This document shows, in pieces, positions 19,212-48,327 of a stretch of 50,673 bases of DNA. How positions within the stretch are numbered: the stretch's first letter is position 1; every line of letters starts with the position of its first letter. This DNA is from Flavobacteriales bacterium. Its GTDB lineage: Bacteria > Bacteroidota > Bacteroidia > Flavobacteriales_D > Sanyastnellaceae. A model generated the notes under the pieces. It had not been told where the DNA came from and searched no databases. It worked only from the letters and a program-made list of their open reading frames with translations. The position numbers and the translations under genes were made by a program. The stretch lies in assembly GCA_020437755.1 (NCBI GenBank), contig JAGQVX010000007.1:1-50673 (forward strand), read 5' to 3'.

Positions 19212-20774
19212 ATGAATTTCCTGAACCCGTCTTTTCTCTTTTTCATTTTTGTTTTACTCTCATGGGGCCATTCGGCAAATGCCCAGCAGGAGGTTAAAAC
19301 GATATGGGGAGAGGAGATCAAGCTGGGTAAGAAAGAACGTTACCTCGACGTTGTGGGAGCCGACCGGGAAGCCTTTTATACTACGAAAGACCTGTACGGT
19401 ACAAGCGATGTGTTTCTACTTGAAAAATACAGACTGGACAGTATGTCGCAGGTGTTCTCGCGCGAAATAAGTCTGCCGGAAATCGACGGAGAAGTGATGT
19501 CATTTGAGAAGCTGAGCTTTGTAAACGACCAGTTTTATCTATTCACTTCGGTATACAACAAGGTATCCCAAACAATTGGCGCGTACTGCATTCCCATGAA
19601 TAAGGAAGGGGATTGGCTGGATATACCGCGGGAATTGGATCGTTTTGAATCGCGCCGATGGAACTCGGGAGAATTCGAAATCCAATGGTCCAACGATAGC
19701 AGTCTGTTTATGGTGTACCGCAAGCTGCCCTACCAAAAGAAAAACAACGAAGAGTTCAATTTTAGAGTCTACACTCGTGATTTTATTCCGGTGTGGGACA
19801 AGCAACTCGAACTGCCTTATGGTGCAGGCACTTTTGAAATAACGCAATACTTGCTGGATCACCGGGGAAACGTATTCCTGCTTTCGGGAAGTGATCCCGA
19901 AAAATCAACCAGCGATTCGAACTGGAAGAAGGCCCGTAAAAAGGAGTACGTAGTGTTCAGCTATCACTGGCAAGAAAAGAAATTACGTCAATTTGATGTG
20001 AACCTGCGGGAGAGTTGGGTGATGTCGGTAGCCTGTCATCTAACGCCGAAAGGAGATTTGTGCATTGGCGGATTTTACTCCAAAGACCAGTATTTCACGA
20101 TTGCCGGCAGCTTCTTTATTACCATGAATGGCGAAACGCGCGAGGTACTTTCCAGCGGATTGAAAGCCTTTGACAAAGACCTGCTTCAACAATTCATGAG
20201 TGATCGTAAAGCCGAGCAAGGCAACGAACTGCCCGATTTTTATTTCGACCATTTGTTGCTCCGAGAAGACGGAAGTGCCCTCATGGTAGCGGAACAATAC
20301 TACATATCTGAGCGGGTAACCAGTGATCCAACCACGGGCCGACAAGTAGTGTCCTATTATTACAATTATCTCGACATCCTGGTGCTTAAGGTGCAGAGCG
20401 ACGGCCAAATCGACTGGGCAGCGCGCATTCCCAAGGATCAGTCTACCACGGGTGACAAGGGGGCGTATTCCTCTTATGCCTTATTTGACACCCACGACAA
20501 GGTGTATTTCCTGTTCAACGATCATCCCGACAATCTGGAAATATGGAAGAACAATCCGGGAGATGACTATAAATCGTTCACTAACAACAAGCGAAGCGTG
20601 GCCACACTGGTGACGCTCGACGGTAACGGGGCACAGATTCGAGAGGCTTTATTTAGCCAAAAAGATGCGGAAACAGTATTGCGACCGGGGTTGTACTATC
20701 AAACAGCCTCAGGAGAATGTGTCATTTACGGACAGGATCGAAAGAGCTATCGTTTTGGTCGCTTGGAATTTTAG
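19212..20774 (+). CDS. Exported protein of unknown function
   Basis: 520 residues from the ATG at 19212, which is followed at once by a strong signal peptide ending GHSANA/QQ; upstream starts would bury it. The mature protein reads as repeated beta strands with sentence-like blades (FYLFTSVYNKVSQTIG, NVFLLSGSDPEK, DLCIGGFYSKDQYF, KVYFLFNDHPDN), so a beta-propeller is plausible. No catalytic motif or sorting tail is visible, so it may stay in the periplasm. I do not recognise the family. A class B copy of the 15-bp repeat (19267-19281) encodes the end of the signal peptide. It converges on the radical SAM gene with 17 bases between. Confidence 0.7.
   Translation: MNFLNPSFLFFIFVLLSWGHSANAQQEVKTIWGEEIKLGKKERYLDVVGADREAFYTTKDLYGTSDVFLLEKYRLDSMSQVFSREISLPEIDGEVMSFEKLSFVNDQFYLFTSVYNKVSQTIGAYCIPMNKEGDWLDIPRELDRFESRRWNSGEFEIQWSNDSSLFMVYRKLPYQKKNNEEFNFRVYTRDFIPVWDKQLELPYGAGTFEITQYLLDHRGNVFLLSGSDPEKSTSDSNWKKARKKEYVVFSYHWQEKKLRQFDVNLRESWVMSVACHLTPKGDLCIGGFYSKDQYFTIAGSFFITMNGETREVLSSGLKAFDKDLLQQFMSDRKAEQGNELPDFYFDHLLLREDGSALMVAEQYYISERVTSDPTTGRQVVSYYYNYLDILVLKVQSDGQIDWAARIPKDQSTTGDKGAYSSYALFDTHDKVYFLFNDHPDNLEIWKNNPGDDYKSFTNNKRSVATLVTLDGNGAQIREALFSQKDAETVLRPGLYYQTASGECVIYGQDRKSYRFGRLEF
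19267..19281 (+). repeat. 15-bp repeat, class B, exact
   Basis: GCCATTCGGCAAATG. Encodes the end of the signal peptide of the unknown exported protein (HSANA). Confidence 0.85.
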
Positions 20775-20791
20775 GGGGCCGTCAACTGCCT

Positions 20792-22963
20792 TTAGCCATC
20801 TTTTAATAGCCAAATTACTCCATCGGCGCGCATCGAGTTCCACCATTCACTGTTGAGCACTGTTTGAGAATCAGTTCCCAATGAATCGGCAAGTTGTTGG
20901 ATTGCTTGACCGGCATTGACCGGTGATTGAGCCGTTATTTCCAGGTTTTGTTCCGAAAAAAACGTCCCGACTGAAGTCGGGACTGCATACTCAAATCTTC
21001 CCTTCCGCGTGTGCATCTGCAAGATCCCCGGTTCACCATGCACGGCCCTCACCTGGTGCCAACACAAGCGAGTATCGGACTTGAACGGCCAGTCGGATGG
21101 TTCGTTTTGGAGGCATCTCCTAATGAATTTGGAGGGCACCGTTTTGCCAGGAATTTCAAAGTCGAAAAAGTCTTGCAGGGGAAAGTCAATCCCGTTATCG
21201 TGCATGTAGTTGTAAAGGGCAGCGCGCAGACCTTCGCCATACTGATCGTGGTCACCACCCGTAGGATCGTCGTGATACAAATCGTTTTGTGCAAATCCTT
21301 TGAATTCCGGACCGGTGCGGATCACCCCATATTTATCCGGGTTCAGCCCTACCGGACTATGTGCCGTCATGGCAAATCGATGCCAGTAGGCAGAGTGAAT
21401 CAATCGGTGTTTAAACAGTTGCCGTACAACCTCCAGGGAGTCTATGGTTTCCTGGTTGGTTTGCGTGGGGAACCCGTACATGAGATAGGCGTGTACCAGA
21501 ATGCCCGCATCACGAAATCCCTTGCACACACGGGATACCTGCTCCAGGGTAATCCCTTTTTCCATCAATTCAAGCAACCGCGGACTGGCCACTTCAAGAC
21601 CGCCCGTAACGGCAATACAGCCCGATGCGGCAAGCAGCTGACATAGGTCGGGACTAAAGGTCTTCTCAAACCGGATATTGGTCCACCAGGTTACTTGAAG
21701 GTTTCTTCTGAGGATTTCTATGGCCAGGTCGCGCATGGCGAGGGGAGGTGCAGCTTCATCCACGAAGTGAAACCCACGCTCACCGGTTTCCGCAATGAGC
21801 TGTTCCATTTTATCCACCAGATTTCGAGCCGGAGCCGGACTGTACCGTGCGATATAGTCTAGCGAGATGTCACAAAAACTGCACTTCTTCCAATAGCAGC
21901 CATGTGCAATCGTGAGTTTATTCCACCGTCCATCATTCCACAATCGATGCATGGGGTTGGGCACGTCGAAGGTGGACAAGTACTGATCCATTAGCAGTCC
22001 GTCGTAGGTTGGTGCCGGAAGATCGCCATGCTTAAACTCACTCACTTTGGAGGCATTCTCAAAAACGACTCTCCCCTCCTTTCGGACGAACGTGCGTTTG
22101 AGTGGGTTGGAAGGATCAACGATATGGTCGAGCAGTGCCATGAACGGACCTTCGCCATCATCGAGCGTGATGAAATCGACGTAGTCAAAAACCGTTGGAT
22201 CCGTGAGGTCACGAAGTTCCGTGTTGACGTAGCCCCCACCCAATACAATTCGACATTGGGGATAATGCTGTTTTATCCACTGGGCGGACTTCAGAGCTCC
22301 GTACAAGTTGCCCGAGAATGGAACGGAAAAGCCCACAATTTGCGGAATCGCATTGGTGAAATAGGTGGACAGTTGTTCCAGAAGGAACTCATCGAGCAAA
22401 TAGGTTGACCCGGTCAATTCTCGATGAATAGGCGCGAAATCGGTGGCCGTACGGGCAATGCGCTCTGCATATCGTGAAAAGCCGAATTGAGGGCCCACAG
22501 TGGCCTGTATCAGGTCGCCCAGGTCTTCCAGGTAGAGGCTGCAGAGGTAACGCGCCCGGTCTTGAACGCTAATGCTTCCAAAAAATAGCTCCTGACCCTC
22601 CAACTGAAAAAAACGAGGTCCCTCGGGCAAATAACCTCCTGCGCTTATTCGGTATGCCAGCGTGTATGAACGATGCTGAAGAAACTGAATCACATCATCG
22701 ACGGTGCTTTCATAGATGAGTCGGTTGGACAATACGTTTGTCAGCTCATTGTCGAGTTGAAATTGGCCCGCTTCAATAGCATTGAAAACACGCTGAAGTC
22801 CTTTTTTGGAAAACAGGTCCAATATAAAATCCAGACCCAAATCTCCCTGCCTTACCTCCACTCCCTGCGCACGAAGAAAGCCAGTGAGGTAGGCCGTAGA
22901 TGGGTACGGCGTATTCAGTTGGGTTAGCGGGGGGATGAGCAGTAAAACCGACGGCTTTGGCAT
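20792..22963 (-). CDS. B12-binding-domain radical SAM protein, CX4CX2C cluster motif
   Basis: 723 residues. The N-terminal half holds a cobalamin-binding-like Rossmann region (about 205-280: IVGFSVPFSGN, RIVLGGGYVNTE, ITLDDGEGP), although the DxHxxG motif that grips B12 is not evident. The radical SAM barrel begins at HGCYWKKCSFCDIS, where Cys356, Cys361 and Cys364 are spaced CX4CX2C, not the standard CX3CX2C. Typical barrel motifs follow (GFHFVDEA, WWTNIRFEK, VTGGLEVAS, AYLMYGFPTQT). The product is unknown; methyl transfer, ring opening or peptide modification are all possible. The end of the gene contains a terminator-like palindrome (20956-20983), about 165 bases before the stop codon. Confidence 0.85.
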   Translation of the reverse strand: MPKPSVLLLIPPLTQLNTPYPSTAYLTGFLRAQGVEVRQGDLGLDFILDLFSKKGLQRVFNAIEAGQFQLDNELTNVLSNRLIYESTVDDVIQFLQHRSYTLAYRISAGGYLPEGPRFFQLEGQELFFGSISVQDRARYLCSLYLEDLGDLIQATVGPQFGFSRYAERIARTATDFAPIHRELTGSTYLLDEFLLEQLSTYFTNAIPQIVGFSVPFSGNLYGALKSAQWIKQHYPQCRIVLGGGYVNTELRDLTDPTVFDYVDFITLDDGEGPFMALLDHIVDPSNPLKRTFVRKEGRVVFENASKVSEFKHGDLPAPTYDGLLMDQYLSTFDVPNPMHRLWNDGRWNKLTIAHGCYWKKCSFCDISLDYIARYSPAPARNLVDKMEQLIAETGERGFHFVDEAAPPLAMRDLAIEILRRNLQVTWWTNIRFEKTFSPDLCQLLAASGCIAVTGGLEVASPRLLELMEKGITLEQVSRVCKGFRDAGILVHAYLMYGFPTQTNQETIDSLEVVRQLFKHRLIHSAYWHRFAMTAHSPVGLNPDKYGVIRTGPEFKGFAQNDLYHDDPTGGDHDQYGEGLRAALYNYMHDNGIDFPLQDFFDFEIPGKTVPSKFIRRCLQNEPSDWPFKSDTRLCWHQVRAVHGEPGILQMHTRKGRFEYAVPTSVGTFFSEQNLEITAQSPVNAGQAIQQLADSLGTDSQTVLNSEWWNSMRADGVIWLLKDG
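20956..20983 (-). repeat. Terminator-like palindrome inside the radical SAM gene
   Basis: GTCCCGACT (20964-20972), 2 bases, AGTCGGGAC (20975-20983): a perfect 9-bp palindrome. In the direction of the gene it is followed by one base and then seven T (20956-20962), the form of an intrinsic terminator. It is in frame and encodes VPTSVGTFF. Confidence 0.8.
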
Positions 22964-23081
22964 GGGGTAAAGATAGGCGACTTTGGGATTACAACAGGGT
23001 CAAAAAAATGGATGGTACCGAATTTCGATACCATCCAAAATGAGTGTTTCCGCGCATAAAAACGAAATATGCCTTTGCGAT

Positions 23082-23549
23082 TTACACCAGTATGTGTTCC
23101 ATTGCAGTACGAAGCATTGCTTCTCCCTCAGGTTGCGGAATTTCAGGCTGAGGCCAGCTGTAGAGGATTCCTCCCATAAGACAAAAAGCTGCGACCCAAT
23201 AACCGACATTGATGAGGATTCCCGTCCACGACCGCTGCTCATACAGCGAGTTGGTGATCAATACAGGTATTGCCGACATCACACAGGTTAATAACGCATG
23301 GAATGCCCCATGCATAAAGTTTTGATCCTCGGCCGGATGATAGGCTGCCCACTGATTGAGGTTATAAGAAATCACCACAGCCATGAGAAAAGCCACGCCA
23401 AAAATCATGGCCATATTACCTTTGGGCGGTTCATCGGGATTGAGTCCCATAGATTTCATCCACGCTGTTCCAAACAACTTGGGATGGTACCAAACAAAGC
23501 CCAGGACAAAAGACGCCAGGGCAGCTACAATAATTGCTATCCAATTCAT
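23082..23549 (-). CDS. DUF1761 family membrane protein
   Basis: 155 residues with four hydrophobic segments (about 3-22, 46-64, 82-98 and 110-130), so an inner-membrane protein. The opening AIIVAALASFVLGFVWYHPKLFG and the MKSMGLN region are typical of DUF1761, whose role is unknown. The cytoplasmic or periplasmic tail is Pro/Glu-rich. It is transcribed alone, with 118 bases to the radical SAM gene downstream and a divergent gene upstream. Confidence 0.82.
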   Translation of the reverse strand: MNWIAIIVAALASFVLGFVWYHPKLFGTAWMKSMGLNPDEPPKGNMAMIFGVAFLMAVVISYNLNQWAAYHPAEDQNFMHGAFHALLTCVMSAIPVLITNSLYEQRSWTGILINVGYWVAAFCLMGGILYSWPQPEIPQPEGEAMLRTAMEHILV

Positions 23550-23695
23550 AATGTTGTGAGTTAATAAGTTGCGAGAAGTTAGGGTGAGAAGCGCTCCACT
23601 CGATTGACCACATGGGGTAGTTATTCACACTTGGTACTGTAAATCAATAGTTTATTGATGCCAGGCTTTGAGGACCACAGCTCTTTTTGTACCGT

Positions 23696-23726
23696 TTTGG
23701 AGTTGGCCGCGATGTGGTTATACTTG
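23696..23726 (+). promoter_or_regulatory. Promoter of the PLP-enzyme gene
   Basis: TTTG (23696-23699), 19 bases, TATACTTG (23719-23726), one base off TAnnTTTG. The predicted start of transcription near 23731 lies 3 bases before the ATG at 23734. A 7-bp inverted repeat (ATCAATA/TATTGAT, 23643-23659) lies upstream and could be an operator. Confidence 0.55.
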
Positions 23727-23733
23727 CAGCACC

Positions 23734-24615
23734 ATGTTGCCTGAAACAACAGAAATATCACCAAAGCTCCATCTGCGAAGAGAAGATTTGTCACACCCCT
23801 TTTATGGAGGGAACAAATTGAGGAAGTTGAAGTACAATTTGCTCAAAGCGCGTGCTGAGGGTTATGACACCATTCTCACGTTTGGGGGTGCGTGGAGTAA
23901 TCATATCTATGCTACAGCAGCTGCATGCAAGGAGCACAACTTCAAGAGTATCGGGGTTATTCGGGGGGAAGAACCCCAACAGTATTCCACTACCCTTCAA
24001 TTTGCCCGGGATCAGGGCATGAAGCTGCATTTTGTTTCACGTTCTGAATACCGCGAAAAGCATGAAGATTTTTTCAAAGCCTGGCTACGCGATGTGCACG
24101 GCAGGTTTTATCTGGTTCCTGAGGGAGGATCGAATTTCCTGGGTGTACAGGGATGTATGGAGATACTTAGCTTGGCTGATAAACAGAATTACACCCACAT
24201 TGCTGTCTCTGCAGGTACCGGAGCAACGGCAGCAGGTTTGTTGCTTTCGTCGGCACCCACACAACACATTCTGGTTTTCCCGGCATTGAAGGATCCCGAC
24301 TATATCCGGGATCAAATCAGCAAGCATGTGTACAGCGTGCTCATGGATCCGGAAAGTACCGAAGAGCTTATGACCCGACTTCAGGTAATTTCCGGCTACG
24401 AAGAAGGTGGCTATGCACGAGTATCCGATCGTCTGTTGGAGTTTATGCGCCAATTCCGGAACGATCATCACATTGAACTTGACGCGGTGTACACCGGTAA
24501 AATGATGATGGGACTGACGAACGAATTGAGGGGCACAACATTTGGCGAATGCCCTAAAATTCTTGCCATACATACCGGAGGTCTCCAGGGAAACGCCGGA
24601 CTCATGAAGGGGTAA
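23734..24615 (+). CDS. PLP-dependent ACC deaminase / D-cysteine desulfhydrase-like enzyme
   Basis: 293 residues from the ATG at 23734; an upstream start at 23668 would lie before the promoter. The fold-type II PLP motif GGNKLRKLKYN near residue 26 carries the Schiff-base lysine. TFGGAWSNH near residue 52 is the substrate loop, and SAGTGATAAGLL near residue 168 is the phosphate-binding loop. Enzymes of this group either open 1-aminocyclopropane-1-carboxylate or release H2S from D-cysteine; the residues visible do not decide between them, and D-cysteine desulfhydrase is the more common activity outside plant-associated bacteria. An exact 15-bp repeat copy at 24539-24553 encodes FGECP near the C-terminus. 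It converges on the Cys-rich gene with 12 bases between. Confidence 0.85.
   Translation: MLPETTEISPKLHLRREDLSHPFYGGNKLRKLKYNLLKARAEGYDTILTFGGAWSNHIYATAAACKEHNFKSIGVIRGEEPQQYSTTLQFARDQGMKLHFVSRSEYREKHEDFFKAWLRDVHGRFYLVPEGGSNFLGVQGCMEILSLADKQNYTHIAVSAGTGATAAGLLLSSAPTQHILVFPALKDPDYIRDQISKHVYSVLMDPESTEELMTRLQVISGYEEGGYARVSDRLLEFMRQFRNDHHIELDAVYTGKMMMGLTNELRGTTFGECPKILAIHTGGLQGNAGLMKG
24539..24553 (-). repeat. 15-bp repeat, class A, exact
   Basis: Inside the PLP-enzyme gene, read as FGEC. Confidence 0.95.
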
Positions 24616-24627
24616 AATTGTGAGCTT

Positions 24628-27037: not shown

Positions 27038-27066
27038 TCGCTTCATTCAAGAGCCGTGAGGCAACT

Positions 27067-28965
27067 ATGAGCGACGCAATCAAGCATGAGTGCGGTATAG
27101 CACTTCTCAGGCTTAAAAAGCCACTTTCCTATTACCGTGATAAGTACGGAACATCCTTCTACGGTCTGAACAAAATGTATCTCCTCATGGAGAAACAGCA
27201 CAATCGCGGTCAGGATGGCGCGGGTTTGGCCAATATCAAACTCGACGTCCAGCCCGGGAAAAGATACATCAGCCGGGTACGTTCCAATCACAGCACTCCC
27301 ATTAAGGACATTTTCGCCCGTGTCATGGGAAGGTTTCAGGAGTTGGAAGACCAGCCCGAAAAACTGGCCGATGTTCAGTTTCTCAAAGAGAACTACGGCT
27401 TCACCGGAGAGGTGTTTTTAGGGCATTTGCGTTACGGCACTTTTGGTGGAAACAGCATTGAACAGTGTCATCCGTTCCTCCGTCAAAACAATTGGATGAC
27501 CCGAAATTTGGTCGTTGCCGGAAACTTCAACCTCACCAATGTGGATGAGTTGTTTTCGCTTTTGGTAAGCCTGGGGCAGCACCCCAAAGAGGTTGCCGAT
27601 ACCGTGACCGTACTGGAAAAAATTGGACACTTCCTCGATGAAGAGAATCAGCGACTGTTTGATATGTACAACTCGCAAGGGTATGGCAATCAGCAGATTT
27701 CTGAGAAAATTCAGCAAAATATTGACGTGCAACAAGTGCTTCAACACGCTGCACGCGATTGGGACGGGGGCTATGCTATGGCCGGTATGATCGGACATGG
27801 TGATTCATTTGTCCTCCGTGACCCCGCTGGAATCCGTCCGGCATACTGGTACGAAGACGATGAAATTGTAGTGGTTACCTCTGAACGCCCGGTGATTCAA
27901 ACGGCGTTCAATGTGCCCATCGAGGAAATCCACGAACTGGATCCCGGTCACGCCATCATCATCAAGAAAAACGCCTCGGTATCGATTAAACAGGTTCGTG
28001 CGCCACTGCCGCGTAAAGCGTGCAGCTTCGAGCGCATCTACTTTTCACGTGGCAATGACGCCGATATCTACCTGGAGCGTAAAAACCTGGGACGAAAAGT
28101 GGTTCCTCAAGTGTTGAAGGCGGTTGAATACGATTTGCGGAACACCGTTTTTTCGTACATCCCCAACACTGCTGAGACTTCATACTACGGCATGATCAAG
28201 GAGGTGGAAGACTACCTCAATGATGTGAAGGCGCGCAAAATCGCCAATTTGGGCGCGAACCCCGATCCGGAGAAAATCCGCGATATTCTGGACATCCGCA
28301 CACGTGTGCAAAAAGTGGCCATTAAAGACGCCAAGCTGCGCACCTTCATCACTCAGGATTCCGACCGTGATGACCTTGTGGCACACGTGTATGACATCAC
28401 TTACGGAAGTGTGGTGGCCGGAAAAGACAATCTGGTCATGATCGATGATTCCATCGTCCGGGGGACAACGCTGAAAAAGAGCATCATCCGCATACTCGAC
28501 CGATTGGGTCCTAAGCAAATTGTCATTGTTTCTTCCGCCCCTCAAATCCGCTACCCCGATTGCTACGGAATCGATATGGCGAAGTTGGGTGATTTCATTG
28601 CCTTTCAAGCCATGATTTCCCTGATCAAAGAGCGGAAAATGGACAGCCTCCTGGAGGTGACCTACAAGAAGTGCAAGGATCAGCAAAACATGCCCAAAGA
28701 GCAGGTTAGAAACTATGTGAAGGACCTGTATGAGCCTTTTACCGCCGATGAAATCTCAGCCCGTATTTCGGAATTGCTCACTCCCAAAGGAACTCAGGCG
28801 AAAGTGCAGATTATTTATCAATCCATTCAGGGACTGCACGATTCCTGCCCCGATCACCTTGGGGACTGGTATTTCACAGGCGACTATCCCACTCCCGGAG
28901 GGAATAAGGTGGTCAACAAGGCGTTTATCAATTACTACGAAGGAAACAACGAGCGCGCTTATTAA
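27067..28965 (+). CDS. Amidophosphoribosyltransferase-type class II glutamine amidotransferase, long form
   Basis: 632 residues, against about 500 for E. coli PurF. The Ntn-hydrolase glutaminase domain starts with the nucleophile Cys9 (HECGIALL), which needs a short propeptide cut. NRGQDGAG, GHLRYGTFGG and GNFNLTN follow as in PurF. The phosphoribosyltransferase domain has the PRPP motif VMIDDSIVRGTT near residue 460. PurF makes 5-phosphoribosylamine, the first step of purine synthesis. Bacteroidota often carry this long form beside a normal PurF, so it may be a paralogue with a changed role (family knowledge; the other copy is not in the window). It is transcribed alone, from its own promoter. 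Confidence 0.85.
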   Translation: MSDAIKHECGIALLRLKKPLSYYRDKYGTSFYGLNKMYLLMEKQHNRGQDGAGLANIKLDVQPGKRYISRVRSNHSTPIKDIFARVMGRFQELEDQPEKLADVQFLKENYGFTGEVFLGHLRYGTFGGNSIEQCHPFLRQNNWMTRNLVVAGNFNLTNVDELFSLLVSLGQHPKEVADTVTVLEKIGHFLDEENQRLFDMYNSQGYGNQQISEKIQQNIDVQQVLQHAARDWDGGYAMAGMIGHGDSFVLRDPAGIRPAYWYEDDEIVVVTSERPVIQTAFNVPIEEIHELDPGHAIIIKKNASVSIKQVRAPLPRKACSFERIYFSRGNDADIYLERKNLGRKVVPQVLKAVEYDLRNTVFSYIPNTAETSYYGMIKEVEDYLNDVKARKIANLGANPDPEKIRDILDIRTRVQKVAIKDAKLRTFITQDSDRDDLVAHVYDITYGSVVAGKDNLVMIDDSIVRGTTLKKSIIRILDRLGPKQIVIVSSAPQIRYPDCYGIDMAKLGDFIAFQAMISLIKERKMDSLLEVTYKKCKDQQNMPKEQVRNYVKDLYEPFTADEISARISELLTPKGTQAKVQIIYQSIQGLHDSCPDHLGDWYFTGDYPTPGGNKVVNKAFINYYEGNNERAY

Positions 28966-28973
28966 GCCATTCA

Positions 28974-28988
28974 GGCATTCGCCAAATG
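28974..28988 (+). repeat. 15-bp repeat, class A, exact
   Basis: 8 bases behind the stop codon of the PurF-type gene. With two more bases it is a 17-bp imperfect palindrome (to 28990). Confidence 0.95.
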
Positions 28989-34794: not shown

Positions 34795-34987
34795 CTTCGT
34801 GTTTTCTTCTGAGGAATCATTGAATGTATTGATTTGAGACTGAATAATCGGGATTTGAAGAAAATTTCACTTCGTCGGGAAAATCTAGTCAGCTATTCGT
34901 CTTATTCTATACCAAAGTCTTCATCTCCCCGATTCGCGGGTTTCACGCATGCGCTCGCGGGGCATGGAGAACAAAATACTCCCAGCC

Positions 34988-37900: not shown

Positions 37901-38776
37901 AGCAAACTGGCGTTCATGGGAATGACCGACCAATCCTTTGACCTCACCGGCGCAGCCGATCGCTATGAAGGTATCGTAGAGATCAACAAACCCATGGGAA
38001 ATGTGGTATTGCAGAGCGACTTTGCCATCGAAGACAATTTTGAGCAGTTGCATCTTGTCAATGGCTTGCTCACATCAGCCGATCCCTCGCAGTTTCAGGT
38101 CATGTTCAAGGTATTCGACGGCTGGTCGGGTGGTAATGAGAACAGTTACATTCAGGGTAGTGCCTATATCGAGGGGTACAGCGGTGGAACAGTTCCCATT
38201 GGTTTAAACGGCAAGTTTGCTCCGGCAGGAATATCCAATGTCTCCACTTACCTGCCTTTCCTGGTTACCTACTATGATGAGGATCCGGTGGGAGCGTATG
38301 GTGATACCCCGGGAACGGGAATTGATCATATATCGTCGTGCGAGTACTGGACCATTGATGCCCCCGCAGGTGGAGTCTCGGCCAGGGTCTTACTCTCCTA
38401 TGACACCGACCGGTGCGGACCTGTTGACAATGCTGCATCGCTAGTGGTTGCCAATTTTCATTCGGGTACGAGCACATGGGACACCATGGGCCAGTCGGCC
38501 GACGATGGATTCTTTTTGACGTCCTCCTCTACTACCAACAACTGGCCGGCGTTCACGCTGGCTTCTACCAATGCCGATAATCCCATGGACGGCTCTACGG
38601 CTGTGGGATGTACCGGTGATTTCAATGGTGACAACGTAGTGGATACCTCCGATTTGCTGCAAATGCTGGGGGGATTTGGCTGCACGGGAAGCTGTCCTCA
38701 TGATCTCAACAACGATGGTGAGGTCAATACCGGCGATTTGTTGCTGTTCCTGGGAGTGTTTGGAACTACGTGTTAG
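34988..38776 (+). CDS. Giant secreted repeat protein with dockerin-like C-terminus
   Basis: 1262 residues from the ATG at 34988, which directly precedes a signal peptide (LLTTLLIFSIDSLA); upstream starts do not. About five units of 165-190 residues repeat, each opening with INKPxGYxVxVxDGD and containing YGYLNG, GSxxLxFxG, FxxVxINKSNPxDxVxFxTDN and GGTFxHNN. This suggests a long beta-helix or beta-solenoid, as in autotransported adhesins. The last 60 residues hold two dockerin-like calcium repeats (DFNGDNVVDTSDLLQMLGGFG and DLNNDGEVNTGDLLLFLGVFG) in place of a T9SS tail. One repeat-family copy lies inside (36408-36420), and an inverted pair follows the stop codon. Confidence 0.82.
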   Translation: MNRIIFALLTTLLIFSIDSLAVDKYWRPINTNFNNAFNWDPVGVPGPGDKVILDHWGNMDCIVHTTVSVGGWLQYDNYTSIASILPGQVLTVGSQGFWMDSGGFYANEQDLYINGSLNVHGGGFLASSATTHVQGNIEINPWPLGGWFTDAGTFSLDGYNYTYLESNLYLNNVVINKPGGYIVGIPDGLNLTAVNNFTVYDGSVNGPGELRIFGDAYFGPGTDNGSAHLRFQSSATNHVTIDKNSFNWGNVIVNKSNLQDSVIVTSSLNPFTLMATPDSLHIEHGRFIVDHPNITFNQAMTKIDPTGLLAATSGTMYINYDWWNNGGTFNHNFGTCIFTAYSYSTINVDGTQDWWNLGINKFSGYSVTVADGDEIQVLNQMDCYDGFLHGANSWLSIQKDMIMHPGADEGSIRVRFVGGETNRYILNQATHLFNHVEINKDSPLDTVFFQTDNTHLATGDGASDHVYVNTGHLAFGECGTHIDWNIKQLDVNSGGTLLAWPGDTYFSHDLLVNGGTFQHNNSRFICDAYNYATFDIDQSIHFYNLVMQKPSGYSVTVADGDTLIIDNRYHSNYGYLNGTNSRLMALDTASFASTHQRGSIHLEFAGSATGNCIYNGSDQLFADVLINKSNPGDRVYFETDNSQLVIGHTGIETCTVRRGTAAFQNQGSYVDWNWINTIVEPEGTFEAFSGDTYCQGNFNETGGEFLHNGGSWIWDNYTYSGVNVTHEMVYHDMEILKPSGYSLSVSTGDSLHILNKFTSHYGYLNGADAFLLVEDTVVLGGSHQRGSAPLEIMGAGTTHFIHSNTSPTFYSIIINKANASDEVLIETTSGNLNFGQNDELLSIVSGLLGYQNYGDQVNMGTGTIRVDGGTWRGPYALMTLNHNVQFLSGNYEHNNGRVQFINYSYGTMQADFTPVFYQFQVAKPAGYTLTITNPGEISVEDTTFFTLGYCHEGSINALGDVVVSPSWNGGSSKLAFMGMTDQSFDLTGAADRYEGIVEINKPMGNVVLQSDFAIEDNFEQLHLVNGLLTSADPSQFQVMFKVFDGWSGGNENSYIQGSAYIEGYSGGTVPIGLNGKFAPAGISNVSTYLPFLVTYYDEDPVGAYGDTPGTGIDHISSCEYWTIDAPAGGVSARVLLSYDTDRCGPVDNAASLVVANFHSGTSTWDTMGQSADDGFFLTSSSTTNNWPAFTLASTNADNPMDGSTAVGCTGDFNGDNVVDTSDLLQMLGGFGCTGSCPHDLNNDGEVNTGDLLLFLGVFGTTC
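36408..36422 (-). repeat. 15-bp repeat, class A, one mismatch
   Basis: The 13-base core CATTTGGCGAATG (36408-36420) is exact; the outermost stem base differs. Inside the giant repeat protein, read as AFGEC. Confidence 0.8.
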
Positions 38777-38784: not shown

Positions 38785-38799
38785 GGCATTCGCCAAATG
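38785..38799 (+). repeat. 15-bp repeat, class A, exact (left arm of pair)
   Basis: Left arm of the perfect inverted pair behind the giant repeat protein. Confidence 0.95.
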
Positions 38800-38810
38800 A
38801 GGAATCAACC

Positions 38811-38825
38811 CATTTGGCGAATGCC
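38811..38825 (-). repeat. 15-bp repeat, class A, exact (right arm of pair)
   Basis: Right arm of the perfect inverted pair. Confidence 0.95.
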
Positions 38826-40867: not shown

Positions 40868-40887
40868 AAAAAAGCGTGTTTCGAGGT

Positions 40888-41955
40888 CTATTCCACCACA
40901 ATTCCGTGATCGGAAAGCACCTGGTCATTGTTCAGGAACAAGAGGGTATATCTTCCTGATGAAAGTTCGGACACATCAAATCCTCGATTCAATGCCGAAG
41001 CCGTGAATGCCTTGACCTCACGACCTTGATTGTCGATGATACGCACATCCGTAACCTGCTCTTTCATGTGTGCGGGCATATCCACCCACATGGTCTCCCG
41101 TGCCGGATTGGGATAAATCACGAGGTCATTGGCATACCAACTAGCCACATCCGTAGGCTTGGTGTCGTCCACGTACTGAAAGGTTATGCTCGATGTGAAA
41201 CCGAGGTTTTCATTGACTTGCAACAGTGGAATTCCACCATCTACCCCATACCAGTGGTACTCCGTCCATGAACGTGGAGTCTCAAAATCGAGCCCCAGTA
41301 AGTCAATAGCTATAGAATCCAACGCTTCCAGATCCATACGAATGCGCAGGGCCTCAAACGTCCCTTGGGGCGTGATGAGGGTTCCCCATCCATCGGCAGT
41401 GGCAGTGCGCCATTGCTTCAGTTTGTACGTAGCTGTGTTGGGGACAGAAATCATCCACTCCGAGTATGAGCTGTCTACGTTGTTGTAGTTCATGGGCAAA
41501 TTGAAGATCACATCCACCGGCTCATTCACCGCAGGCAGCGGAATGCCGTTGACGGTGGTTCCGGTTCCTACCTGACTGTAGGCCGTTGAGGTTTTCTTGA
41601 AAAAGACAAACATATCTTCCAGCGTCAGCATTCCTCCCAAATCGACATCATCGGCAGTTGAACCAAAATCAGCCTGATGATCGGGGTCAAATGGACTGTT
41701 GAACAAGAACTGATACATGAATGGGGCATTGCTCACGCTCACCATATTAGTAGTATCGGTACTCTGGATTTCCAACTCGCTGTAATCCCACGTGTATCCT
41801 GCTCCGGTGAGGGAGAAGTCAAAATCGTTAATCAAATTGCCCTGCGCAACAGGATAAGACGTACCGGCGCTGGGTAAGTCGTTTTCGGTGATGGTAATCT
41901 GAGCGGATGCACCCCAGGTAAGGCAAAGAGCTATAGCGGTAAAGATTCGGTTCAT
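40888..41955 (-). CDS. T9SS-sorted secreted protein
   Basis: 355 residues with a signal peptide ending WGASA/QIT. The body has no family I recognise; it reads as a beta-sandwich typical of hypothetical Bacteroidota exoproteins (YTWDYSELEIQSTDT, PVDVIFNLPMNYNNVDSSYSE, GTFEALRIRMDLEALDS). The end is a clear type A T9SS tail (DLVIYPNPARETMWVDM...LSSGRYTLLFLN), so it crosses the outer membrane. It stands upstream of the AlkD-like gene by 20 bases and diverges from the protease gene at 42184. Confidence 0.8.
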   Translation of the reverse strand: MNRIFTAIALCLTWGASAQITITENDLPSAGTSYPVAQGNLINDFDFSLTGAGYTWDYSELEIQSTDTTNMVSVSNAPFMYQFLFNSPFDPDHQADFGSTADDVDLGGMLTLEDMFVFFKKTSTAYSQVGTGTTVNGIPLPAVNEPVDVIFNLPMNYNNVDSSYSEWMISVPNTATYKLKQWRTATADGWGTLITPQGTFEALRIRMDLEALDSIAIDLLGLDFETPRSWTEYHWYGVDGGIPLLQVNENLGFTSSITFQYVDDTKPTDVASWYANDLVIYPNPARETMWVDMPAHMKEQVTDVRIIDNQGREVKAFTASALNRGFDVSELSSGRYTLLFLNNDQVLSDHGIVVE

Positions 41956-42183
41956 GGTTGAAAAAATTTAGGTAAATCTAAGAAAGCAAGTCTGTATTCC
42001 CTTGATCGCCACATGACTTTCCGCGCAATGGAGTGTGGAAAACAGGTTGGGAGTGGCAGAAGAGCTCGCCTAGACTAACAACAATCATTTAAAATGTACT
42101 TCGTACCCATTGCTACCACGGGGTAATTTCCGTTAAATTCGGCATTCCATCTATTCATGAAGATGGAAGAAACCTGTATAACC

Positions 42184-44508
42184 ATGAAAAAGATCTTTAC
42201 ACTTTTCCTGGCCCTTTGTGGGGTAGGAACATTGGTGGCTCAAATTGGCCACGGCGGACAACCGCACAATTGGAATGTTTCCGAATCGTTTGATGTCTCA
42301 ACGATGGTGAAAATGCCTCATCTCGATATGGAGGAAATCCAGGCTGAAGATGCTGAGCGCGACCAATACAAAGAATTTGCATACCGCTTTGGGGTTGAGT
42401 ACGACGTTAACCTCACCACCGAAAACAGTGGTACCTGGGAAACCCTGGAAGATGGTTCACGCTTGTGGCGTGTGGCTATTTCTGCTCCCGATGCCGTAGC
42501 CATTAACCTGCGATTCGGTCAGTTTCGCATGCCGGAAGGTGCCAGCGTATTTGTGTACGACACGGATAAAACGCACTTCCTCGGATCGTTCACCCGTGAG
42601 AATAACAAGAAATGGGGGAGCCTGGCCATCGGAAACTGTTATGCCGATGAAATCGTCGTGGAACTCCATTTGCCGAATGGCGCACCTGCCAACTGGTCAC
42701 TACAAATAGATCAAATTGTGCACTGCTACCGCGGTATGAAGTCCAATTTTGAACTGTCCAACACCGAGTCCAACCGCGGACCATTCGGAAACAGCGGCGC
42801 TTGCAATATTGGCATCAACTGTCCGGAAGGGGTCGATTGGCAAGTAGAAAAGAAAGGCGTAGCCCTCATAGCATCCGGCGGATTTGCCATTTGCTCGGGC
42901 TCTTTAGTCAACAATACTGCCATGGACGGTACGCCCTACTTCCTCACCGCCAACCACTGTCTGGGAGGAGAAACCAACTGGGTATTCTACTTCCACCACG
43001 AAGCCGAAACCTGCTCGGGAAATACCGGACCAACCGACATGAGCATCTCGGGATCAACCCTAAAAGCAAGCAACGGAGGCAGTGACTTTGGTCTGCTCGA
43101 ATTGAGTTCAACACCACCGGCCGACTGGAACGTACAGTATTGCGGATGGGACAATTCAGACGCGGAAACAGTGACAGCGGCAACCGGAATTCACCACCCA
43201 TCGGGAGATTTGAAAAAGATTTGCCATGAGAACGATTCCCCATACCATACGTCTCAATTTGGAGCACAGGTATGGTTTATCGATGAATGGGAAGAAGGGG
43301 TTACCGAAGGAGGATCATCGGGCTCACCTCTCTTTGACCAAAACCATCGCATTATTGGTCAGCTTTACGGTGGATATGCCGCTTGTTCAGGATCTCAAAA
43401 CAATGGAGAAGCCGACTGGTATGGTCGCTTTGGGGTGTCGTGGGATGGTGCCAGCGCATCTACCCGTCTGCGCGATTGGCTGGATCCGGGCAATACCGGA
43501 GTGACTACACTTGACGGCTGGCCCGAAGGTGCTGTGCTGTACAGCTATGATGCGGCAGCACAAAACGTGAGCAACCTTCCTGAATCGCTTTGTTCTTCAG
43601 AAAGTGTAACACCCGAATTTACCTTGAAGAACAACGGTACAGAGGCACTTACCTCGTGTTCTATTTCGTACAGCTACAATGGCAACAGTCCGGCAAACAT
43701 GGATTGGACAGGAAACCTCGCTTCGGGCTTAACCGAAGTGGTGACGTTGCCTTCTTTTACGCCGCAAACCGGCAACAATACCGTTGAAATCGAGGTGTCC
43801 AACCCCAATGGACAGTCGGATGAAAACAACTTCAACAACAGCAGCAGCGGGAACTTCATGTTCTCATTGGGCGAAACGGTTATCAACCTGGAGCTGATCA
43901 CCGACGATTACGGTTATGAAACTTACTGGGAAATTCGCGAACCCAATGGTACTGTCCTGGCTTCAGGTGGAAACACGGCGGTTGGCCCCAATGGTGGTGG
44001 CTTACAAGCTGCTGCCGATACCGATCCGGGGGCATATGCCAACAATACCACCATCAATGAAACCATCGATTTCTACTCGCAGGGATGCTACGAGTTTTTC
44101 ATTGTCGACGATTGGGGTGATGGAATTTGCTGCGATTACGGCACCGGAAGCTATGTCATCACCGATGGCAATGGCGTAACAATGGCCAGCGGTGGTGCGT
44201 TTGGTGGTGAGGAAGAGAAGATTTTTGGCATGCAAAACGGCCAGTCTGTGAACGAGCACGACGTCCTTTCATTCAACTTATTCCCCAACCCAAGTTCGGG
44301 TACTGTTACGTTGCAATTCACTGAAATTCCCGGCAGCAAAGCGCAGCTGCGCGTGGTAGATCTCACCGGTCGCGTAGTGTATACTTCACGTGTTCAGCCG
44401 CAGCCGCAAGCCGTACTCGAGTTGAGTCATCTGGCAGCCGGAACGTATCATGTGGTGATCACCGACAACAACCATCAGATCTCACGTGTATTGAATTTGA
44501 AGTACTAA
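42184..44508 (+). CDS. T9SS-secreted trypsin-like (lysyl-endopeptidase-type S1) protease
   Basis: 774 residues from the ATG at 42184, which begins a signal peptide ending TLVA/QIG; the in-frame ATG at 42157 adds nine residues. A propeptide of about 180 residues precedes the S1 domain. The triad is His258 (TANHC), Asp301 (SDFGLLEL) and Ser379 (GGSSGSP), as in Achromobacter/Lysobacter Lys-C-type enzymes. Cysteine-rich flanks (NSGACNIGINCPEGVDW) also fit. A CARDB-like unit lies at about 460-560, and a further beta domain contains CYEFFIVDDWGDGICCDYG. A T9SS tail follows (LFPNPSSGTVTLQF...LAAGTYHVVI). A secreted protease for nutrient gain is the likely role. Confidence 0.92.
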   Translation: MKKIFTLFLALCGVGTLVAQIGHGGQPHNWNVSESFDVSTMVKMPHLDMEEIQAEDAERDQYKEFAYRFGVEYDVNLTTENSGTWETLEDGSRLWRVAISAPDAVAINLRFGQFRMPEGASVFVYDTDKTHFLGSFTRENNKKWGSLAIGNCYADEIVVELHLPNGAPANWSLQIDQIVHCYRGMKSNFELSNTESNRGPFGNSGACNIGINCPEGVDWQVEKKGVALIASGGFAICSGSLVNNTAMDGTPYFLTANHCLGGETNWVFYFHHEAETCSGNTGPTDMSISGSTLKASNGGSDFGLLELSSTPPADWNVQYCGWDNSDAETVTAATGIHHPSGDLKKICHENDSPYHTSQFGAQVWFIDEWEEGVTEGGSSGSPLFDQNHRIIGQLYGGYAACSGSQNNGEADWYGRFGVSWDGASASTRLRDWLDPGNTGVTTLDGWPEGAVLYSYDAAAQNVSNLPESLCSSESVTPEFTLKNNGTEALTSCSISYSYNGNSPANMDWTGNLASGLTEVVTLPSFTPQTGNNTVEIEVSNPNGQSDENNFNNSSSGNFMFSLGETVINLELITDDYGYETYWEIREPNGTVLASGGNTAVGPNGGGLQAAADTDPGAYANNTTINETIDFYSQGCYEFFIVDDWGDGICCDYGTGSYVITDGNGVTMASGGAFGGEEEKIFGMQNGQSVNEHDVLSFNLFPNPSSGTVTLQFTEIPGSKAQLRVVDLTGRVVYTSRVQPQPQAVLELSHLAAGTYHVVITDNNHQISRVLNLKY
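42667..42681 (-). repeat. 15-bp repeat, class B, exact
   Basis: CATTTGCCGAATGGC on plus. In the protease propeptide, read as HLPNG. Confidence 0.85.
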
Positions 44509-44540
44509 GTTCACAAGATAAACTCTTGTACTTTTCATGG

Positions 44541-44570
44541 AAATCCCGTCTCTGGCGGGATTTTTCTTTT
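44541..44570 (+). terminator. Intrinsic terminator of the protease gene
   Basis: AAATCCCG (44541-44548), 7-base loop, CGGGATTT (44556-44563) and a T-rich tail to 44570. It is followed at 44574 by a copy of the 15-bp repeat. Confidence 0.85.
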
Positions 44571-44573
44571 TCA

Positions 44574-44588
44574 GGCATTCGCCAAATG
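44574..44588 (+). repeat. 15-bp repeat, class A, exact
   Basis: Between convergent genes, directly behind the protease terminator. Confidence 0.95.
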
Positions 44589-44601
44589 TTGTTCAATCAC
44601 C

Positions 44602-46989
44602 CTACTCGCACACCGCACCAATCAGACCCAGGAACAAAAGCAGGTCAGTGGTGGTAACATCACCTGTGGCATCCATATCAGCGATACAAGCCGATTGGCA
44701 ATTGAAGTCGCCCAGGAAGAGCAGAAGATCCGACACGTTTACGAAGCCATCTCCGTTGAAATCGCCCGGACAACAATTGTTTCCTACCACCCACGACACC
44801 CAGGCTCCAAAAGAGGAGCAGTTGTCGTCAATGGTTGGAAAGGGAACAAATACACTCAACCGCACAATGAATTGTCCGCCAATACCCGCAGTAGCGTCCT
44901 GCACTGTAAAATCGTAGGTCGTATTGGGATTGTGGATCCACGAGCAACTGTAGGTCACTTCACCCGGTGGCAATGTAGGTACGTTGAACTCCGATTGAGT
45001 TATTCCAATTCCGGGGTCAGCCACAAAATTGGACGTTCCGCCGTTCTGGTCGAAATACGGACTCAGGTTCACCACCTCCAGCTCGATCAGGTTACCATAC
45101 GCCACATCGTAGGGAATACCGGCATTGGTTAGGTCGAGAGAAATGGTCATGGAGGAAGCCCAGTAAAACTGCAAGGTGTCCTCAAATACAAAGTTGTACG
45201 TATGATCGTTGACTGCCAGATAAGGCGTGGCGAAATACGTACCCTGATTGTCGCAACTTGTGCTCAACTCCACCACGACGCCCGATTGCGGTAGTATGGT
45301 TCCCGCCACAAGTTCACTTTCCTGCGTAACAGGCATCCCCGAAACCACCCACGCAATGGTGTGCTCTCCAAAGTATGAGGTGTTTTGGGCCTGAAGTACA
45401 ACTGGATCTCCACAACACGGATTACTGTCCGATACTTCCGCCGTTCCTGCATTGCAGCCAAATGCAATAACATCCGGATCAACAGGAGCTGCACACAGAT
45501 CGGAAGTGACGCTTACGCTGTGCATCAGACTATTGAACCCGGTTTCGGCGTCCCACACCCCGTCGTTCGCCAATCGAATGCTGTATTCCGGACGACCGTA
45601 CAGCAAAGGTTCGGGATCGGGAAGGTGGAGGAACAGGTCGTAATCGGCAACCTCAAAATCGGCTGGTATACCTACCGAAAATGGGATGGTAATCAGCCCC
45701 ACCTCACTTTCGGGAAACCAAAAACGGGGGTCGACATCCAACGGCGCCATGAAGGTAGCTCCGGTCGTCGCGTTCACCAGTAAGAGCTCCAATCCACGCG
45801 GATTGAATGGTGCAGCGTATCCCACATTGCGCAGTACAAGCTCCCCCTCGAGGGCACACCCCGCAGCAACAGACTGATCGTAGGTACCTTCCAACAGTTC
45901 GATGCGGTATCCCAATTTTTGAGCAATTTCATCCATGCACCCATCGGTTTCCCACGACGACAACACGTCGGGGTGGTAGCCGCTGTTGAGGTACGACCAG
46001 TGATAGGCCATCAACTCGGTATCGGCCGCACCACCTTCCGAAGCACAGTCGGAACGGGGGGAATTGGGAAAGCATGTTTCGCCTCCCATGGGCATATAAC
46101 GCGTTTCATTCACAAGCCATGCACCCTCGGCGATGGTGCTATCGCAGTAGGTACCGAAATCGGTAGAACTGGCCAGGAAGCAATCGTTGTGCTGCCCTAC
46201 GCGGTACATATCTGTCCCCGAATAGGCGCCTGTTTCATTCAGGGGAGACGGTTCGGTGAGGGGACAAATCTGCCAGGGATCGGCAATAATTTCCTGTTGG
46301 TCATCCCACTGATCCCAGTAGTAGAAGGCGTATTTATAATACGGCGTGCGCACCTGGACAATACGGCGCTCCGGCAGGGCTGCCAGCAATGCATCGAGAA
46401 CACGTTTTCGGTTGGTGAGGTTGCGAATACCGTTGGCATCCATAAAGTCGGGCACCACATTGTTGATGGTCGCCCATTCGCCATAGGCACCGATGAATCC
46501 GGCTTGCAGCGCGGCAATCACGTCGGTGTTTTGCTGGAGGACAGGAGCTAACTGATCAATATGCTGCAACACCACGTCAACCGGAGCATCCACGGTATCG
46601 ACATTGTTCACATCAAACGACTCAACAGAATACGCAAACCGCACAATGCCCTTGAAGCCATTGGTTCGCAGAATGTCCATGTCCTCCTGCACCAAATCGA
46701 GGAATTGCTGACTCAGCGGACCGTCCACAAATTCGGGCATGTAGTACAGGCGCAGCGCCAGGGTTTGGTTTTCCGCTGCAAGCACCGCCAGGTAATTCGG
46801 ATCAATGGGTTGATAAGCCGCCCATCCCTGCGTATTTTGGGTGTAGCCCGTGATCTGCGTATAAAACCCCCGCTCAGGATTTGGGAAGTCTTCACCCGTC
46901 GGACTGTAACTCACCGTTGTTTGCGCATGCAAACTCATACCCCATACCAGCGCAATACCGGCGATCCATAGCGTTTTAAGTGTGCTCAT
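44602..46989 (-). CDS. DUF4832/DUF4874 secreted protein with dockerin-like C-terminus
   Basis: 795 residues from the ATG at 46989. A signal peptide ends GMSLHA/QTT; the longer open frame to 47184 would lie upstream of the promoter. The N-terminal half matches DUF4874 (NPERGFYTQITGY, LALRLYYMPEF, TNGFKGIVRFAYS, AALQAGFIGAYGEW) and then DUF4832 (TELMAYHWSYLNSGYH...LGYRIEL). This pair resembles a TIM-barrel glycoside-hydrolase-like fold (family-level inference). Two Ig-like regions follow. The end holds two dockerin-like repeats (DFNGDGFVNVSDLLLFLGDF and DMDATGDVTTTDLLLFLGLIG) instead of a T9SS tail. Confidence 0.85.
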   Translation of the reverse strand: MSTLKTLWIAGIALVWGMSLHAQTTVSYSPTGEDFPNPERGFYTQITGYTQNTQGWAAYQPIDPNYLAVLAAENQTLALRLYYMPEFVDGPLSQQFLDLVQEDMDILRTNGFKGIVRFAYSVESFDVNNVDTVDAPVDVVLQHIDQLAPVLQQNTDVIAALQAGFIGAYGEWATINNVVPDFMDANGIRNLTNRKRVLDALLAALPERRIVQVRTPYYKYAFYYWDQWDDQQEIIADPWQICPLTEPSPLNETGAYSGTDMYRVGQHNDCFLASSTDFGTYCDSTIAEGAWLVNETRYMPMGGETCFPNSPRSDCASEGGAADTELMAYHWSYLNSGYHPDVLSSWETDGCMDEIAQKLGYRIELLEGTYDQSVAAGCALEGELVLRNVGYAAPFNPRGLELLLVNATTGATFMAPLDVDPRFWFPESEVGLITIPFSVGIPADFEVADYDLFLHLPDPEPLLYGRPEYSIRLANDGVWDAETGFNSLMHSVSVTSDLCAAPVDPDVIAFGCNAGTAEVSDSNPCCGDPVVLQAQNTSYFGEHTIAWVVSGMPVTQESELVAGTILPQSGVVVELSTSCDNQGTYFATPYLAVNDHTYNFVFEDTLQFYWASSMTISLDLTNAGIPYDVAYGNLIELEVVNLSPYFDQNGGTSNFVADPGIGITQSEFNVPTLPPGEVTYSCSWIHNPNTTYDFTVQDATAGIGGQFIVRLSVFVPFPTIDDNCSSFGAWVSWVVGNNCCPGDFNGDGFVNVSDLLLFLGDFNCQSACIADMDATGDVTTTDLLLFLGLIGAVCE

Positions 46990-46993
46990 TGTG

Positions 46994-47022
46994 CAAAGAT
47001 AGGGGGATGGGGGTATAATCAA
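46994..47022 (-). promoter_or_regulatory. Promoter 4 bases before the DUF4832 gene ATG
   Basis: On the minus strand: TTG (47022-47020), 18 bases, TATCTTTG (47001-46994), then 4 bases and the ATG at 46989. The best leaderless-transcript candidate in the window because both promoter elements are present. Confidence 0.65.
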
Positions 47023-47199
47023 GTGGATGCCGACCACTTGCCCCCCACTTGTACCTCCAAGAATGTTAAGATGTTCAACCGCACCATTCCCATTCCACGT
47101 TCGAATCGTATAAATTCGCCTTGAACCGTGGTTTTCGGTAAAAAGTCCGGTGATTTGCTCACTAAATGAGCAATGCCAACTCAAATGGAAACTTCAAAC

Positions 47200-48327
47200 A
47201 TGAGAATACTACTTGTCCTCCTGGGGATTTTGTCGGTGGCGGCCGCCAAGGCTCAACTCGATAGTATTTGGGTTGTTGACCGCTACCGGTACTATCATGT
47301 GTATCTGCCCTCGCAATACGATGGTGAGACGGCACTGCCCATGGTTATTGGGCTCCACGGCGGATTTGGGAGCGCCCTGCAATTCCCTGATCAATCGCTC
47401 ATGAGCGAATCTGCCGAAGAGAACGGCTTTATTGCGCTGTATCCCGATGGACTGGGGTACCTCCTTGCTCCTACATTGCACTATTGGAATGCAGGAACAT
47501 GCTGTGCCTACCCCTTTCAGCAAGGCATTGATGATGTGGGATTTATTGACGTGCTCATCGATAGTGTTGCAGCCCTCTATGCGGTTGATCTGAACCGGGT
47601 ATATGCCACGGGGATCAGCAACGGCGCTATGATGAGTTACCGACTGGCCTGTGAGCTGAGCCATCGCATTGCGGCCATTGCTCCTGTTGAGGGATCGCTT
47701 ATGGTGCATCCGTGCAATCCCGATAATCCCGTGCCTGTGGTGCATTTTCATTCCTACCTCGATTCCAATATTCCCTACCAGGGCGGTGTGGGCGATGGGG
47801 CCTCCGATCATTACAATCCGCCCATGGACTCGGTGATGAACGTGTTTAGCGAAATTGCTCATTGCGAGCACATCGCGGATACCATTTACGACGGATTCGA
47901 TTATACGCACGTCATTTGGGATTCCTGTGATTGCGGCTATCGGATGGACTACTATATCTGCACCGACGGTGGGCATTCGTGGCCCGGAGGTGAAGGTACC
48001 ATTATTGGCGACGACCCTTCCGAACTCATGGATGCTAACGCGCTCATGTGGGCCTTTTTTCAGGAATTTAGTCTGGATTGTACCCCCACCGGCACACCCG
48101 GGATTCAAGAGGTCGATCAGTCTATTTTTCCCAATCCATCAAGCGGTGAACTCACGCTATCGGGGATTGGAACTCCCGGTGAAATCAGGATCTTTAGCGC
48201 TTCCGGTAGTGAAGTGTTCAGGCATTCGCCAAATGGAGAACCTGTTCACCTGGACCTATCCCATTTGCCGAATGGCTTATACTTCATACACTACGGCACG
48301 GGAGGGAAACGATGGATAAAAATGTAA
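47200..48327 (+). CDS. T9SS-secreted PHB-depolymerase/feruloyl-esterase-like hydrolase
   Basis: 375 residues from the ATG at 47200; an upstream ATG at 47173 lies in the same frame. A signal peptide ends AAAKA/QLD. The alpha/beta hydrolase of the esterase-depolymerase (LpqC/Fae) type has the oxyanion loop GLHGGFGS, the nucleophile Ser140 in GISNGA, Asp188 (YLDSNIPY) and His259 (DGGHSWPGG). It probably cleaves an ester in a polymer, such as polyhydroxybutyrate or plant-wall feruloyl esters; which one cannot be read. The T9SS tail (FPNPSSGELTLSG...LPNGLYFIHYG) contains one class A and one class B copy of the repeat, 26 bases apart and inverted. Confidence 0.88.
   Translation: MRILLVLLGILSVAAAKAQLDSIWVVDRYRYYHVYLPSQYDGETALPMVIGLHGGFGSALQFPDQSLMSESAEENGFIALYPDGLGYLLAPTLHYWNAGTCCAYPFQQGIDDVGFIDVLIDSVAALYAVDLNRVYATGISNGAMMSYRLACELSHRIAAIAPVEGSLMVHPCNPDNPVPVVHFHSYLDSNIPYQGGVGDGASDHYNPPMDSVMNVFSEIAHCEHIADTIYDGFDYTHVIWDSCDCGYRMDYYICTDGGHSWPGGEGTIIGDDPSELMDANALMWAFFQEFSLDCTPTGTPGIQEVDQSIFPNPSSGELTLSGIGTPGEIRIFSASGSEVFRHSPNGEPVHLDLSHLPNGLYFIHYGTGGKRWIKM
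48221..48235 (+). repeat. 15-bp repeat, class A, exact
   Basis: In the sorting tail of the esterase, read as HSPNG. Confidence 0.95.
48262..48276 (-). repeat. 15-bp repeat, class B, exact
   Basis: CATTTGCCGAATGGC on plus. In the same sorting tail, inverted relative to the copy at 48221, read as HLPNG. Confidence 0.85.

Follow-up and report, generated by a model that had tools for sequence, protein, structure and literature searches.

A genome-wide hairpin-forming DNA repeat in Flavobacteriales that co-occurs with a pilus-like operon and probably serves as a self-DNA uptake signal

RESULTS

A dispersed DNA word in two paired forms

The window, by which we mean the whole stretch of 50,673 nucleotides analyzed here, is contig 281 of the genome of a Flavobacteriales bacterium (G000; 3.78 Mb in 303 contigs). 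Exact copies of a 15-nucleotide word are found in it in two forms, class A (GGC..GCC, n = 10) and class B (GCC..GGC, n = 3), the latter at 19267, 42667, and 48262, just as an earlier sequence-only reading of this DNA had counted them. When up to 3 mismatches are allowed, 25 and 26 matches are found in the window, compared with 2.3 to 2.4 expected from shuffled sequences. The copies lie within genes, at their ends, and between them:

3031-3045, + strand: class A copy GGCATTCGCCAAATG, which begins where the + strand ORF 131-3031 stops
7210-7224, - strand: further paired stem, GCA-ATGC-TGC-AAATG
7562-7576, + strand: class A copy, sense, within the TPR-protein ORF 7170-8900
12340-12354, - strand: class A copy, antisense, within the protease ORF 12298-14949
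13069-13083, + strand: further paired stem, GTC-ATGC-GAC-AAATG, in which pair 2-9 is T-A
14695-14709, - strand: class A stem with loop ATGC, antisense in ORF 12298-14949
14828-14844, + strand: 4-bp-stem variant, GGCC-ATTC-GGCC-AAATG
14974-14988, - strand: class A stem with loop ATGC, intergenic
19041-19055, - strand: class A copy, antisense in ORF 17274-19133
19267-19281, + strand: class B copy GCCATTCGGCAAATG
22337-22351, - strand: further paired stem, GCG-ATTC-CGC-AAATT
24539-24553, - strand: class A copy, antisense in ORF 23668-24615
28974-28988, + strand: class A copy, intergenic, 8 bp past ORF 27067-28965
38785-38825: inverted class A pair (38785-38799 on the + strand, 38811-38825 on the - strand), directly after ORF 34949-38776
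42667-42681, - strand: class B copy in ORF 42157-44508
44574-44588, + strand: class A copy in the intergenic stretch 44508-44602
48221-48276: inverted pair of a class A copy (48221-48235, + strand) and a class B copy (48262-48276, - strand) within ORF 47173-48327

The inverted pair at 38785-38825 is arranged like paired uptake sequences at gene ends. The sequence-only reading had placed the change at 14974 in the loop and had recognized a 4-bp GGCC stem at 14828, and both descriptions are accurate. A minor class with loop AGNC and an AAATG tail also exceeds background (17 copies in the 1.46-Mb sample described below, for example at 15496-15510 in the window). Several ORFs of the window (12298-14949, 29080-30774, 40888-41955, 42157-44508, and 47173-48327) encode proteins with T9SS type A sorting domains, which are usual in Bacteroidota.

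The pattern GSCATTCGSCAAATG, which allows either base at both of the places that distinguish the classes, has 440 matches in the host genome, 215 and 225 on the two strands, and every place among the matches listed is class A or class B; the reversed control pattern has 0 matches in the same genome. Stem statistics were taken from 1.46 Mb of this genome in 81 stretches, the window included, and this sample contains 98 class A and 68 class B copies and none of either single-change form. The claim that the two positions change together, which had been drawn from the window, thus holds across the sample with 166 paired and 0 single-change forms; intermediates are depleted and nowhere near as frequent as the paired forms. 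The only other genome in the genus (G001) has 70 copies, which among the matches listed are paired and mostly class B, with no single-change form. Outside the carrier genomes single-change forms occur as chance words (G016, G033, G132, and G481), and a word search across the class yielded only chance matches beyond the genus. On contig 63 of G001, 4 class B copies lie within 280 bp (760-1039), 3 of them co-oriented and ~60 bp apart.

Base pairing defines the word

Classes A and B belong to a larger set of copies that can be written 5'-G N N (ATNC) N' N' C AAATG-3', with a 3-bp Watson-Crick stem in every enriched form. The base of the stem is G-C, any base can stand third in the ATNC loop, and beyond AAA the tail is less strictly kept. 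At least 14 stems occur in the sample, led by GGC (325) and GCC (115) and followed by GCT (22), GAC (20), GCA (12), GGT (11), GTC (9), GCG (7), GAT (7), and others. The linked change between the two classes, which had been taken as a sign that structure is under selection, is therefore one case of a general pairing rule. The proposal that A and B are two dialects of one recognition word survives in altered form, as they are merely the commonest of these stems and not discrete, while true dialects do exist, differ in loop and tail, and are found in another genus (see below). A two-part protein contact on plain duplex, which had been offered as an alternative, would not by itself link both sides of more than 10 stems.

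The rule was quantified on anchors in which loop and tail are fixed, the stem letters are free, and pairing is not demanded. Both inner pairs are Watson-Crick in 538 of 629 anchors, and these 538 copies in 1.46 Mb amount to ~1,400 per genome, a density of ~1 per 2.7 kb with a mean spacing within stretches of 2.2 kb. Pair 2-9 is G-C in 275 cases, C-G in 147, A-T in 23, and T-A in 11, against ~19 for all mismatch types together, and pair 3-8 is C-G in 394, T-A in 34, G-C in 13, and A-T in 13. Mutual information, which the sequence-only reading had proposed to calculate genome-wide for positions 2 and 9, is 0.91 bit for these positions (largest of 200 shuffles, 0.032) and 0.55 bit for positions 3 and 8 (shuffles up to 0.030), while every other column pair has at most 0.12. 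When classes A and B are taken out, 59 of the 160 remaining anchors pair, whereas shuffles average 5 and never exceed 14. Moreover, 12 of 126 anchors with the same loop and tail form 4-bp stems (~0.5 expected), and since a 4-bp stem moves one arm by a base, a rigid duplex word can hardly explain these copies. Base 0 does not pair with A11, so the 3-bp stem is not extended in this direction.

On neither strand are G-T pairs commoner than other mismatches. A hairpin in RNA or in one DNA strand should tolerate G-T, and the missing excess suggests that pairing is demanded on both strands, as it would be in a cruciform. The bottom strand reads CATTT followed by a hairpin with the loop G-N-A-T and a closing pair that is mostly C-G. 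This c-GNAT-g loop fits d(cGNABg), which, along with d(cGNNAg), is among the stable DNA tetraloop families attributed to Nakano 2002 in PMC8373063. Folded as free DNA, the 3-bp hairpin has a predicted energy between about -2.3 and -2.5 kcal/mol, whichever strand is taken. A lone 3-bp stem is weak at ~-2.5 kcal/mol for a free single strand, and a protein would therefore need to capture or induce the hairpin.

Copies act as DNA and arose by substitution

The 538 copies comprise 208 in sense and 219 in antisense orientation within ORFs, 102 that are intergenic, and 9 that are partial. Intergenic DNA is enriched, with 19% of the copies in 8% of the sequence. The equal numbers in sense and antisense, together with the lack of a wobble excess, indicate that the unit is DNA and not RNA. 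When copies are assigned to replication strands by local GC skew, the split is 200 to 244; within the limits that the draft contigs set on this test, a strong strand bias of the Chi type is absent. Close inverted pairs, such as the one at 38785/38811, occur occasionally. The flanks show weak preferences (T/A-rich upstream to about -14, G at 15-16, and A/T at 19-20) that are common to sense, antisense, and intergenic copies.

Orthologous DNA of G001, which is 66 to 74% identical, aligns gap-free across the motif and 12-bp flanks for 12 of 19 aligned copies, and opposite these gap-free copies G001 mostly has non-motif sequence. Two copies are kept in place, including the class B copy at 42667 of the window, which has its counterpart at the orthologous site in G001; the majority of copies are not common to both genomes. 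Gap-free alignment to orthologs that lack the motif shows that copies arose by substitution and not by insertion.

The sole Y1 (RAYT-like) transposase gene of the host genome lies on contig 280 and is flanked (1100-1400) by the palindromic family GCCCTGAAGGGGC / GCCCCTTCAGGGC, which is likely the gene's own REP set.

A second dialect in another genus of the family

When 200 kb of a genome from another genus of the same family (G012) was scanned blindly for any loop-plus-tail class with a surplus of paired stems, one clear class emerged, with loop TANC and tail GAA (61 paired versus ~3 expected). Pooled sequence from 80 marker-gene loci proved unusable as the background for such scans because the loci are homologous. 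This second dialect, CGC(TANC)GCG-GAA, has the same anatomy as the first. Its stems are CGC (51), GGC (6), and CTC, ACC, CGT, and CAC (one each), and without CGC 10 of 141 anchors pair, for which shuffles give a mean of 2.9 and a maximum of 8. Its bottom-strand loop, c-GNTA-g, falls in the d(cGNNAg) family. The main form, CGCTANCGCGGAA, occurs 770 times in G012 and 667 times in G031, once in G065, and 0 to 3 times in all other relatives. G065 is a congener of G012, is 99% complete in two contigs, and has neither PilB nor the secretin described below; its single copy is at chance level.

Both dialects co-occur with a pilus-like operon

A PilB/GspE-type ATPase is present in G000 and G001 and absent from the 11 other relatives first tested. 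In G000 it is encoded in an operon on contig 271 with a secretin, PilN-like, PilO-like, and PilP/GspC-like proteins, pilin-like proteins that include minor pilins, and PilC/GspF, the PilO-like assignment being made by position and size. The copy of the operon in G001 (contig 77) has one more pilin and a prepilin peptidase. In both genomes the operon contains a single assembly-type ATPase, and a second full-length ATPase of the PilB family (PilT-like, for retraction) was not found in either. ComEC is present in all relatives tested.

Through the order, PilB was found in 48 of 399 genomes, including G012 and G031. A search of 114 family genomes for the operon secretin found it in four, namely, G000, G001, G012, and G031, and a hairpin dialect was detected in precisely these four. 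The search for dialect 1 covered nearly the whole family and that for dialect 2 ~70 of its genomes, and operon-free genomes were searched for these two dialects only. Secretin identity is 52 to 72% over the full length among these genomes and 42 to 49% over the best part for machines of other families. Apart from a divergent system in G603, the family genomes that have PilB and secretin are thus the very ones that bear the motif, and the contrast between G012 and G065 shows motif and operon differing together within one genus. As only two genera are positive, this co-occurrence represents few independent events. The divergent system lies on contig 59 of G603, a third genus of the family, and consists of a PilB with 42% and a secretin with 24% identity. 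A pilus-bearing genome of another family (G573) gave no clear hairpin motif in a de novo scan of 200 kb; the machine class alone, therefore, does not imply a tag.

DISCUSSION

Our results lead us to propose, with a probability of roughly 0.7, that the repeats are a genome-wide signal of the DNA uptake type, which would mark self-DNA in natural transformation, and that its core is recognized as a DNA hairpin of 3 bp, probably a tiny cruciform extruded from duplex, rather than as a duplex word of fixed sequence. As in uptake signals, the word is strongly over-represented throughout the genome, lies in coding and noncoding DNA in both orientations, originated by substitution, and co-occurs with a pilus machine. 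We further consider it somewhat likely that the word represents a class of self-DNA tag new for Bacteroidota, in which shape carries the code. The machine would pick DNA from which a 3-bp hairpin or cruciform can be extruded, with a stable loop of the c-GNAT-g or c-GNTA-g type and a flanking A-rich arm, and the stem letters would be free provided that both strands pair. Dialects would swap loop and tail while the fold is kept.

On the top strand, the tag consists of G-N-N, the loop A-T-N-C, N'-N'-C, and AAATG(G) within weakly AT-rich flanks. In the proposed mechanism, the type IV pilus-like envelope machine, made of a single PilB-type ATPase, secretin, PilN- and PilO-like parts, minor pilins, PilC, and prepilin peptidase, would bind extracellular DNA at this tag, possibly with a minor pilin as the receptor that captures the extruded hairpin or cruciform. 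The bound DNA would then be pulled in, and ComEC would pass one of its strands into the cell. If uptake and recombination favor tagged fragments, tagged alleles would multiply, and tags could build up by point mutation even within genes. In Riemerella, another competence model among the Flavobacteriales, ComEC, DprA, ComF, RecA, and four unknown genes are essential (PMC8459023).

The main reason for caution is that the closest described machine has been assigned to secretion. The so-called T2SS of Cytophaga, a T4aP-like system, likewise has PilB/GspE, secretin, PilC/GspF, and pilins; this Bacteroidetes "T2SS" groups with T4aP in published trees, its reported role is protein secretion, and no link to a genome-wide DNA motif is described there (PMC6668835).

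Other explanations have to be weighed against the distribution and the structure of the copies. A signal for chromosome maintenance or recombination (Chi-like, HIP1-like, or for segregation or methylation), with the hairpin as an incidental feature, would fit copies that are spread genome-wide in and between genes and are genus-specific, but we consider it unlikely, as there is hardly any replication-strand bias and sister species differ all-or-none along with the pilus operon, which housekeeping signals would have no reason to do. Inverted repeats are also the natural targets of symmetric homodimers, and several paralogous receptors reading the duplex, each with its own inverted repeat and without a hairpin, might explain why the abundance of classes A and B differs between G000 and G001. 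Such receptors are nevertheless improbable in light of at least 14 stems with a single loop and tail in common, 4-bp stems that shift one arm by a base yet still pair, a loop that fits stable DNA tetraloop families, and a tail that makes the site asymmetric.

REP/RAYT elements and the ends of IS200/IS605 have a short 5' head followed by a DNA hairpin that is read as a structure. The motif recalls REP in this respect, and G000 does have one Y1 transposase gene, but we regard a REP-type element, or a target of a hairpin-reading (HUH/Y1, RAYT) transposase, as very improbable. These elements spread by insertion and have longer stems, whereas copies within genes can be aligned without gaps to orthologs that lack the motif; the G000 Y1 gene sits amid other palindromes of the GCCCTGAAGGGGC type with the nearest motif ~0.8 kb off, and Y1 genes occur in many motif-less relatives, while G012, dense in its dialect, has only a marginal Y1 match. 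Inserted motif copies flanking the Y1 gene were not found at its locus on contig 280. Some copies come after stop codons, at times as inverted pairs, which might point to a terminator or an mRNA hairpin; an element of this kind is hardly credible, given a stem of just 3 bp, a location mostly within coding sequence, equal numbers in sense and antisense, and the lack of G-U tolerance on either strand.

A self-DNA uptake tag finds its closest counterparts, in terms of how it would work, in the DUS and USS of two proteobacterial families, stated to be the only families in which sequence-specific DNA uptake is known (PMC12616744). Like the DUS of Neisseriaceae (PMC3630211), the hairpin motif is a short word that recurs hundreds to thousands of times, inside genes as well as between them and in either orientation, with inverted pairs at some gene ends, genus-level dialects, and a link to type IV pili. 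The minor pilin ComP, however, recognizes DUS as a fixed word, whereas the word described here has a variable but always paired stem and belongs to a different phylum; a term search of the DUS dialect paper found no mention of a hairpin or of covariation, inverted DUS pairs aside. The density of the motif and its dispersed copies within coding sequence resemble those of the Pasteurellaceae USS. Its enrichment in intergenic DNA also recalls USS and DUS. USS flanks are likewise AT-rich. Unlike the hairpin word, USS is non-palindromic (PMC12616744), and both DUS and USS are fixed words (PMC3630211, PMC12616744). No uptake sequences of Bacteroidota were found in a literature search, most subscription papers being outside its coverage.

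If our reading is true, these repeats would be a third, unrelated case of sequence-specific uptake, located in Bacteroidota and again tied to a pilus, which would mean that such tags evolve repeatedly. A tag coded in structure would also bear on how duplex DNA kinks or opens to pass the outer-membrane secretin, since a site that must form a hairpin would be a natural place to bend or melt the DNA.
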